Part shown: positions 2,006 through 17,448 of the stretch, piece by piece
How positions within the stretch are numbered: the first letter of the stretch is position 1
How the letters are laid out: the number at the start of each line of letters is the position of its first letter
IMG/VR virus record: IMGVR_UViG_3300030406_005579
Location: 1-22,745 of that record
Source of the DNA: a virus
Direction: 5' to 3' (one strand)
DNA length: 22,745 nt
Position numbers and translations under genes: made by a program
The notes under the pieces: generated by a model
What the model was told of the DNA's origin: nothing
Seen by the model: the letters and a program-made list of their open reading frames with translations, nothing else
Databases searched by the model: none

Positions 2006-3169
2006 ATGGCCAGAACGCCTAAGAGTCTACTCGGTTTGCGAGGCAAAAAACGTAAGCCTCGCACGCCAAAAGCTTTCGATGAAAAGTACATGGGTGGTGA
2101 ACCAGAATGGACTGATGAGGTCGCCACCTCTACACAAATTGGACTAGCATATAACTGGTACAATTATTTCTACAACACCAAAGAAAAAGCGAAGCTTCTC
2201 TTCGATAACTATCCGAGAGACAAGAAAGAGATCCGCCTGCTCAAAAGGCTCCCAGACTGGAAATTAAATCCTACTTGTTGCTATCAAGCTCGCATGATGG
2301 CGGTGGGCTGTAATTTACCCGCTGAAAGTCTAAATTATTTCAATGCGACTATCGATGCTCTTCTGGATGAAGCGAAGCAGATCCAAGAGGAGAAAAAAGA
2401 GACGAAACCCACTGCCCCAAAGCCATCCATTCAAGAGAGGATAAAGGAGCAGATATCTGAGTACATTGGAGAAATTGAAGATGAGATTGATAGGTTCACT
2501 CTGAACAAGTACAAGAGTGACTTCGATATGTACAAGTGGTTGCGTCAAAACAACGTGAAGCAACAGCAGTCAAATGCGATTGCAAATTACTACAGTGGTC
2601 TTTTATCGGAACTCGAATTACTTGTCTCTGGTAATGCCTACGATGTCGAGGGTGACAAGCAACTCGATGAGGGCTACAGTCACATGAAAAAATCTGAGAA
2701 AAAACGCCTTTTGGACTTTGTGAAAAGCATTGTATCTGATGCAGCAGCGAATGCTCAGACTCAGAAAACGACTCGCAAGACTCGAACCAAGAAACCGGCT
2801 TCTGTCGAGAAACAAATCTCTCGATTGCAGTTCATGACCGAGAATGTGGATTACAAGGTGGCAAGTGTCAACCCATCATCGATTATCGGCGCTAGTCAGC
2901 TCTGGGTATTTAATGTCAAATACAAGAACCTAAGAGTATATAACTCAATGGGCCCTGCAGGGTTCTCAGTGAAGGGCACAACGTTACAGGGCTTCGATCC
3001 TGATAACTCATATGCAAAAGCACTACGTAAACCACACGACGTTCTACCGCAGGTACTCAACGGTGGTAAAAGGGTCTTGAATAAACTGATGGATAACTTG
3101 ACCACAAAAGCTACCTCACCAAACGGCCGTATCAATAAAGACTGTATTTTGATGAGGGTCATAAAATGA
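2006..3169 (+). CDS. large conserved phage protein of unknown function
   Basis: A 387-aa protein. Residues 1-25 are very basic (KSLLGLRGKKRKPRTPK). Residues about 45-115 form a tryptophan/tyrosine-rich helical region. About 120-165 is a Lys/Glu/Pro-rich linker. About 265-285 is a second basic linker (QTQKTTRKTRTKKP). The C-terminal 100 residues look folded (QLWVFNVKYKNLRVYNSMGPAGFSVKGTTLQGFD). Two basic segments and linkers suggest a nucleic-acid-binding scaffold, but I recognise no catalytic motif. It has its own promoter, P2, and overlaps the next gene by four bases. Confidence 0.8.
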   Translation: MARTPKSLLGLRGKKRKPRTPKAFDEKYMGGEPEWTDEVATSTQIGLAYNWYNYFYNTKEKAKLLFDNYPRDKKEIRLLKRLPDWKLNPTCCYQARMMAVGCNLPAESLNYFNATIDALLDEAKQIQEEKKETKPTAPKPSIQERIKEQISEYIGEIEDEIDRFTLNKYKSDFDMYKWLRQNNVKQQQSNAIANYYSGLLSELELLVSGNAYDVEGDKQLDEGYSHMKKSEKKRLLDFVKSIVSDAAANAQTQKTTRKTRTKKPASVEKQISRLQFMTENVDYKVASVNPSSIIGASQLWVFNVKYKNLRVYNSMGPAGFSVKGTTLQGFDPDNSYAKALRKPHDVLPQVLNGGKRVLNKLMDNLTTKATSPNGRINKDCILMRVIK

Positions 3170-16520: not shown

Positions 16521-16679
16521 ATGCAATGGATTAAGGATCGCATTAAGGAACGCACGACATGGGACGGAGGTGCACTTATCGCCGTCGGTTTGGTGGTGCT
16601 TCTTTTAGGACCACTTGCCAAATGGGCTGCTATGGCAGCTATCGCTTGGGGTGTAATTACCTTAATTAAATCTGAGTAA
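16521..16679 (+). CDS. 52-aa two-helix membrane protein
   Basis: ATG 16521 follows AAAGGA. The product MQWIKDRIKERTTWDGGALI... has an amphipathic basic N-terminus, then two hydrophobic stretches (ALIAVGLVVLLLGPL and WAAMAAIAWGVITLI). The KERTTWDGG start is one I associate with short membrane proteins of marine T4-like phages. Function unknown. Confidence 0.7.
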   Translation: MQWIKDRIKERTTWDGGALIAVGLVVLLLGPLAKWAAMAAIAWGVITLIKSE

Positions 16680-16684
16680 ATCTA

Positions 16685-16713
16685 TTGACTTTTATAAGGT
16701 GACAAATTAATAT
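16685..16713 (+). promoter_or_regulatory. promoter of the tmRNA gene (P10)
   Basis: TTGACT (16685-16690), 17-bp spacer, TAATAT (16708-16713), giving a start near 16720, just before the acceptor piece. It follows the stop of the preceding membrane protein by five bases, so the RNA has independent expression. Confidence 0.78.
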
Positions 16714-16785
16714 ATAATAATAGTGACGTTGAGGAGGACATTAAAGCTAGACAGGACCGGGGTGCAAATCCCCGCACCTCCACCA

Positions 16786-16883
16786 AAAGCACATCGGATA
16801 GGGCGGATGCATTCGTTGCAATGCCTAGCAAAAATGGCTTAACTTAGACTTGTCGGATGGGCAGGACAGGCGGTGTGTTTTTG
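16786..16883 (+). other. tmRNA intervening segment, predicted to be excised
   Basis: This 98-base stretch lies between the CCA end and the 5' end of the coding piece. Its two ends pair (AAAAGCACA with TGTGTTTTT), continuing the acceptor stem into a long precursor hairpin that would present both mature ends for processing (RNase P for the 5' end and other RNases for the 3' end, by family knowledge). Confidence 0.8.
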
Positions 16884-16965
16884 GGGGGTGTGCTAGGATC
16901 GACTGTTAGTGTATAGGAAATCGGAGTCACGAGGTTGATCGCTTTAGAGATCAAACACTATAAAT

Positions 16966-17010
16966 GCAAACGATAACTTTGCACATGATGATTTCGCTCT
17001 TGCAGCGTAA
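16966..17010 (+). other. tmRNA proteolysis tag reading frame
   Basis: Resume codon GCA at 16966, then codons for ANDNFAHDDFALAA and TAA at 17008-17010. With the alanine carried by the RNA the tag is A-ANDNFAHDDFALAA. ANDNFA at the start and ALAA at the end match the alphaproteobacterial tag pattern read by ClpXP/ClpAP. The HDD centre differs from the Caulobacter-type EE. Confidence 0.93.
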
Positions 17011-17081
17011 TTAATCGGGGTTCGGGAGGCACCTGGCAACAGAAGCCTCCCACTTTACACACAAACACACAGGAGAAAAGT

Positions 17082-17222
17082 ATGAAGTTGTGTCCCATTT
17101 TGAAAAGGTTCGGTCGAGGTCTTATTCGATCGGGCTATATGCAAGCATCATATGAAATGAAGCGCGAAGGTTTACATGCCGAAGCTGCTCGTTTACGTGC
17201 GGAGGCTTTAAAAGATGACTAA
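17082..17222 (+). CDS. 46-aa basic amphipathic protein
   Basis: ATG 17082 follows AGGAG. The product is MKLCPILKRFGRGLIRSGYM followed by a helical, Ala/Glu/Arg-rich tail (QASYEMKREGLHAEAARLRAEALKDD). It begins 30 bases after the tmRNA and overlaps the next gene by eight bases. Function unknown. Confidence 0.65.
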   Translation: MKLCPILKRFGRGLIRSGYMQASYEMKREGLHAEAARLRAEALKDD

Positions 17223-17448
17223 GAACCCATATGAAATCCGTTTCGATCTACTGACAATGGCGAAGGATATGCTCGATCGTCAGTATGAACAGACGAGTAA
17301 CATGGCATGGTCTGCATTTGAGAAGGCGGCTGAGCAGAACAAGGACGTATACAAAGAGATGGAAAAGTACGTCCCTAAAATGTTTACTCCGGAAGAGATC
17401 ATTGCTCAAGCGGAGAAACTACAATCATTCATAAACAAGAAGGACTGA
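17215..17448 (+). CDS. conserved T4-like phage small protein
   Basis: A 77-aa protein starting MTKNPYEIRFDLLTMAKDMLDRQYEQTSNMAW, a pattern I recognise from a small conserved protein of T4-like marine phages with no assigned function. Helical throughout (FTPEEIIAQAEKLQSFINKKD). Its presence supports the T4-like assignment. The next gene starts four bases after its stop. Confidence 0.8.
   Translation: MTKNPYEIRFDLLTMAKDMLDRQYEQTSNMAWSAFEKAAEQNKDVYKEMEKYVPKMFTPEEIIAQAEKLQSFINKKD

Follow-up and report, generated by a model that had tools for sequence, protein, structure and literature searches.

A probably functional, circularly permuted tmRNA gene in a lineage of T4-like phages

Introduction

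When a tmRNA gene is found between phage genes, does it belong to the phage or is it a stray piece of host DNA, and what might it do during infection? We addressed this question for the IMG/VR virus record IMGVR_UViG_3300030406_005579, itself a fragment, of 36,508 bases. Its first 22,745 bases are the stretch of DNA that was analysed, here called the window. A two-piece tmRNA has been described in the T4-like marine phage Melnitz, and 53 two-piece tmRNAs were counted in phage genomes (PMC9004378). The 2025 tmRNA database contains 79 unique phage sequences (PMC11915505).

Results

Record and genomic surroundings

Phage families matched in the window were PhoH, an RNaseH-type exonuclease, a second exonuclease family (phrog_298), a glycosyltransferase, phrog_11903 and a tail assembly chaperone. 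The rest of the record added a DnaB/gp41-type helicase and a baseplate hub lysozyme. Among the proteins scanned, only phage proteins were recognised on both flanks of the tmRNA over 36.5 kb, and none of those scanned was seen to be an integrase. The phrog_11903 protein (2006..3169, + strand), which served as lineage marker in the tests of synteny and co-inheritance, is closest to proteins of T4-superfamily phages of Ochrobactrum, Caulobacter, Sinorhizobium, Rhizobium and Stenotrophomonas. Relatives of the record include Sinorhizobium phages phiM12 and phiN3, Caulobacter phage Cr30, Ochrobactrum phage OC and Stenotrophomonas phage DLP6. The gene order glycosyltransferase, phrog_11903, small gene, RNaseH was also found in phiN3 and RHph_I1_18. 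A nucleotide search of the tmRNA region against 50,697 phage records gave no match.

T4-type genes flank the tmRNA on either side, relatives show the same synteny, and the gene does not lie at a host or prophage border. Directly upstream is a small predicted membrane protein of 52 aa (16521..16679, +), which has the same place in several relatives. Downstream are a small open reading frame (ORF) of 46 aa (17082..17222, +), kept in the closest relatives, and a 77-aa gene (17215..17448, +) that is conserved across the lineage. We considered whether the 77-aa gene might encode the late coactivator gp33 of T4, the neighbour of the tmRNA in Melnitz, and rejected this, as BLASTP, Pfam and PHROG gave no support. 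A Skipping-rope RNA was likewise rejected as part of the gene, since even a permissive threshold gave no match in the window; one related phage contig has this RNA (RF02924) immediately upstream of its tmRNA (L140, 1406-1495).

Identification and structure of the tmRNA

The sole gene reported by ARAGORN for the window was a permuted tmRNA at 16693-17101 (+) with the tag ANDNFAHDDFALAA. Rfam matched the region to alpha_tmRNA (RF01849; 16686-17054, 113 bits, E 1.4e-30, model positions 1-355 of 355) and to tmRNA_permuted (RF04321; 16723-17010, 111 bits, E 3e-21, model positions 1-213 of 213). Both scores are more than twice the respective cut-offs, that of RF01849 being 50 bits, and the matches are far above chance. 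A sequence-only reading had placed a complete permuted ssrA of the alphaproteobacterial type between phage genes at 16720-17051, and had named a covariance search without a tmRNA hit as a refuting outcome. The search returned a strong match instead, and ARAGORN, Rfam and inspection of the sequence all bear out the gene, with the position right to within a few bases. ARAGORN and Rfam agree on a complete, circularly permuted tmRNA of about 16,723-17,054 (+).

The order of the pieces, as read from the sequence, is the permuted one of acceptor piece, intervening segment and coding piece. Rfam, sequence reading and alignment define the acceptor (tRNA-like 3') piece at 16723..16785 (+), which includes the helix-2 strand GUGAC. 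The sequence further gives a T arm (16758-16774, +), the acceptor 3' strand CACCTCC (16775-16781, +) followed by A73, and an encoded CCA (16783-16785, +). The intervening segment of 98 nt (16786..16883, +) has a closing stem, AAAGCACAUCG / CGGUGUGUUUU, that covaries in relatives, and is expected to be removed during maturation. The coding piece (16884..17054, +; ARAGORN, Rfam and sequence) comprises the acceptor 5' strand GGGGGTG (16884-16890, +), a D-like region, a pseudoknot region, the tag frame (16966-17007, +) with stop codon TAA (17008-17010), and a 3' hairpin GGGAGGC/GCCTCCC (17024-17051, +). All seven pairs of the acceptor stem GGGGGTG/CACCTCC form, including the G3-U70 alanine determinant; this pairing, the T arm and the CCA are thus present as had been claimed. 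According to ARAGORN, the tag is in frame and has a hydrophobic protease-signal end, followed by the stop.

A probable sigma-70-type promoter, TTGACT-17-TAATAT, precedes the gene (16685..16713, +). TTGAC[A/T/G]-17-TATAAT-like boxes occur at the matching place just upstream of the tmRNA in many relatives. The earlier claim that the gene has its own promoter holds in that such a box is present and resembles those of the relatives; with 9 of 12 positions matching, it is weaker than theirs and not significant on its own.

Distribution and co-inheritance

We searched 50 records for a tmRNA, 48 of which were collected via phrog_11903 and two via the tag, and found a permuted tmRNA in 17. Fourteen records extend 10 kb or more downstream of phrog_11903, and every one of them carries the tmRNA, always on the same strand and 8.8-20.3 kb away. 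A fifteenth record fits this synteny if its contig is circular. The phrog_11903 records without a tmRNA end too early to reach its position. When records were sampled instead through the 77-aa downstream gene, 27 of 33 contained the tmRNA; in the other six, at most 311 bases precede the 77-aa gene before the contig ends. The permuted form in a lytic-type phage had been called unusual, which is not supported: at least 53 phages carry a two-piece tmRNA (PMC9004378), and in this lineage it occurs in every record that is long enough.

Distances between the mature tmRNAs of 18 phages closely followed those between their phrog_11903 proteins (Mantel r = 0.87, p = 0.0001). In a tree of 37 tmRNAs, with small bacterial sampling and moderate deep support, the window groups with T4-like phage tmRNAs (clade support 91), and the sister is Melnitz (support 87). 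Most of the small number of bacterial or host-like sequences included fall outside this phage clade; one SAR11-tagged sequence lies inside the phage group. Among isolates, Rfam found permuted tmRNAs in Stenotrophomonas phage DLP6 and Rhizobium phage RHph_I1_18. The gene is dispensable in the wider clade, since the isolates phiN3, OC and Cr30 gave no Rfam tmRNA match. Judging from these sequence comparisons, we consider the tmRNA a fixed, long-inherited lineage gene of T4-like phages and not stray host DNA.

Structural conservation

In an alignment of 22 tmRNAs, standard pairs occupied 92% of the pair cells, compared with 71% in shuffles. Changes on both sides were seen at 26 of 37 pairs; the shuffles averaged 20, a comparison that disregards relatedness. 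G3-U70 was unchanged in all 22 tmRNAs and was the sole position fixed as a G-U pair. Acceptor pairs 4-6 vary by compensation (GGGGGCG/CGCCTCC, GGGGTAG/CTACTCC and GGGCCCG/CGGGTCC). In nearly all long examples, about 10-12 pairs make up the closing stem of the intervening segment, and a linker of 4 nt usually separates this stem from G1. The stem also occurs in phage isolates, among them Melnitz, DSS3P8 and RcXuper. It is missing in four host-like sequences with short intervening segments. The stem is not exclusive to phages, because a plasmid copy from Bosea (see below) has it as well.

Phage tmRNAs mostly scored 56-139 bits, whereas bacterial alpha tmRNAs reached 237-305 bits. The segment that links the tag stop to the 3' hairpin, an accessory that is no requirement for tmRNA membership, is largely deleted in the window and its phage relatives and present in the host-like sequences L011 and L048. 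In view of the low scores and the missing segment, the function of the phage tmRNAs could be altered.

The tag and the host

The tag ANDNFAHDDFALAA is identical in four phage contigs (L003, L004, L005 and L006). A search of 84,980 species genomes found no occurrence of this tag or of the wider pattern ANDNFAx[DE][DE][FY]A. Hence, the centre of the tag, which had been suggested as a clue to the source host, does not reveal the host, because no bacterial genome searched contains the tag and several phage contigs share it. This calls for caution with host guesses based on phage tmRNA tags.

Inserts in the intervening segment

The intervening segment of the window is short and has no insert; inserts were confined to relatives. 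In three of these, an HNH endonuclease ORF lies inside the intervening segment: at L139 1626-2060 (phrog_655; segment of 496 nt), at L185 2403-2798 (again phrog_655; 464 nt) and at L144 1629-1943 on the - strand (phrog_2255; 327 nt). Three others (L014, 977-1093, - strand; L023; L038) have a conserved membrane-type ORF of about 38 aa wholly within the segment, with its stop just ahead of the acceptor stem. The closing stem is retained around the inserts. The tmRNA database paper mentions endonuclease genes in tmRNA solely for group I introns, along with one tRNA inside an intervening sequence (PMC11915505). We tentatively suggest, at somewhat less than even odds, that the intervening segment of this lineage-core tmRNA serves as a cargo slot for HNH endonuclease genes and small ORFs, i.e. 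an intron-like homing site that needs no splicing. Inserts would leave the RNA undamaged because tRNA-type processing removes the segment.

Further permuted tmRNAs in phages and a plasmid

Several permuted tmRNAs turned up in sequences without an annotated tmRNA feature. The one in Stenotrophomonas phage DLP6 (L153 1501-1722; KU682439.2, 102838-103059) has the tag ANDDSFAPMAIAA, and the main text of the DLP6 paper does not mention a tmRNA. Others are in Roseobacter phage DSS3P8 (L162 1447-1833), RcXuper (L164 1426-1842), RcSimone-Hastad (L165 1414-1804) and Mesorhizobium phage Cp1R7A-A1 (L163 1299-1684). A GOLLD RNA lies just upstream of the tmRNA in DSS3P8 (L162 843-1276). Plasmid pBSY19_1 of Bosea sp. 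RAC05 carries a permuted tmRNA (L157 512-932) that is missing from the PLSDB gene table and has a phage-like, long, stem-closed intervening segment.

Discussion

Proposed function

The sequence comparisons indicate that the window probably encodes a functional two-piece tmRNA of the alphaproteobacterial type, which is stable and syntenic in a T4-superfamily lineage related to phiM12, Cr30 and DLP6. No SmpB gene was found in the 27 records searched, and therefore the RNA would have to use host SmpB. Ordinary trans-translation with host SmpB, AlaRS and proteases is the most likely mode of action. Transcription would start from the sigma-70-type promoter of the tmRNA itself, after which host tRNA-processing enzymes would cut out the intervening segment. 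The two RNA pieces would pair, and host AlaRS would recognise G3-U70 and attach alanine. Bound to host SmpB, the charged tmRNA would then move into ribosomes that have stalled on broken mRNA, append the ANDNFAHDDFALAA tag to the stalled product and free the ribosome, and the tagged product would pass to host proteases recognising the ALAA end. The likely benefit is that free ribosomes are maintained while mRNA decay and host takeover yield many non-stop complexes. We infer that, in its simplest role, the RNA would add to the capacity for rescuing ribosomes that stall on mRNA broken in the course of takeover. The sequence-only reading had suggested continued ribosome rescue while host mRNA is destroyed, or the tagging of different substrates, and these suggestions are plausible. 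That the gene is fixed, syntenic and co-inherited, with compensatory changes in its structure, argues for a real ribosome-rescue benefit during infection.

Alternatively, instead of simply adding rescue capacity, the phage tmRNA might compete with or replace that of the host. Host or defence proteins would then be tagged in a different way, or stalled products would be broken down and reused as amino acids. The Melnitz authors put forward a comparable idea (PMC9004378), and both a tag centre unlike the host tags in the collection searched and a 3' part trimmed relative to bacterial alpha tmRNAs are in line with it. However, the tag retains the standard ANDN start and ALAA end, and we saw no sign of altered substrates. 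We consider such a diverted function unlikely, at roughly one chance in eight.

Considerably less probable is a recent, incidental capture of host ssrA, for instance by imprecise excision or recombination, without a selected role. Such an event is conceivable, as integration commonly takes place at host ssrA, fragments of which can be carried by prophages (PMC9004378). Yet the tmRNA has the same position and strand in 14 of 14 informative records, is co-inherited with a phage protein, and has covarying stems, a tag absent from all bacterial genomes searched and a place in a distinct phage clade. Sequence evidence of this kind appears largely to refute the capture.

It is highly improbable that the RNA inhibits host trans-translation, as the tag-less tmRNA of mycobacteriophage DS6A reportedly inhibits the endogenous tmRNA (mentioned in PMC11915505), since it has an intact and conserved tag frame, stop codon, CCA and alanine determinant. 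Host chromosome or a prophage boundary mis-binned as virus, conceivable for some IMG/VR contigs with a host-like tmRNA (L011, L022 and L048; 285-301 bits), is, on the present data, refuted for this record and has a negligible probability: phage genes alone were recognised among the scanned proteins on both sides, and many phage records share the gene order. The sequence-only reading had itself raised the alternative of a host chromosome with a prophage beside ssrA, which did not materialise, the record being that of a T4-like phage.

Comparison with known systems

Phage two-piece tmRNA is a kind already known. Like the tmRNAs of Methylophilales phage Melnitz and related marine myophages, that of the window is phage-encoded, permuted and alpha-type (RF04321/RF01849) and resides in a T4-like phage; it also shares with Melnitz a stem-closed intervening segment with a 4-nt linker and a standard ANDN...ALAA tag. 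In contrast, the Melnitz tmRNA has a glutamine riboswitch just past its 3' end, whereas the window gave no riboswitch match, and it adjoins the late-transcription coactivator, to which the downstream gene of the window is unrelated by BLASTP. With the alphaproteobacterial two-piece tmRNA (RF01849) it shares the permuted order, the G3-U70 acceptor stem, the T arm, the ANDN tag start and the 3' hairpin with GGCACCUGGCAACAGAA. The phage version differs in lacking most of the segment from tag stop to hairpin, in its lower score and in its longer, stem-closed intervening segment. Two T4-superfamily isolates from the same wider clade, DLP6 and RHph_I1_18, also have a permuted tmRNA, but theirs lie near tRNA genes and at other positions, and the unannotated tmRNA of DLP6 is fitted better by the beta model.

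Phage tmRNAs are usually viewed as scattered oddities; the T4-like lineage described here is a natural test set. As far as the cited papers show, its new features are a tag absent from the searched bacterial genomes, the inserts in the intervening segment, and the fixation and synteny of the tmRNA across the lineage.
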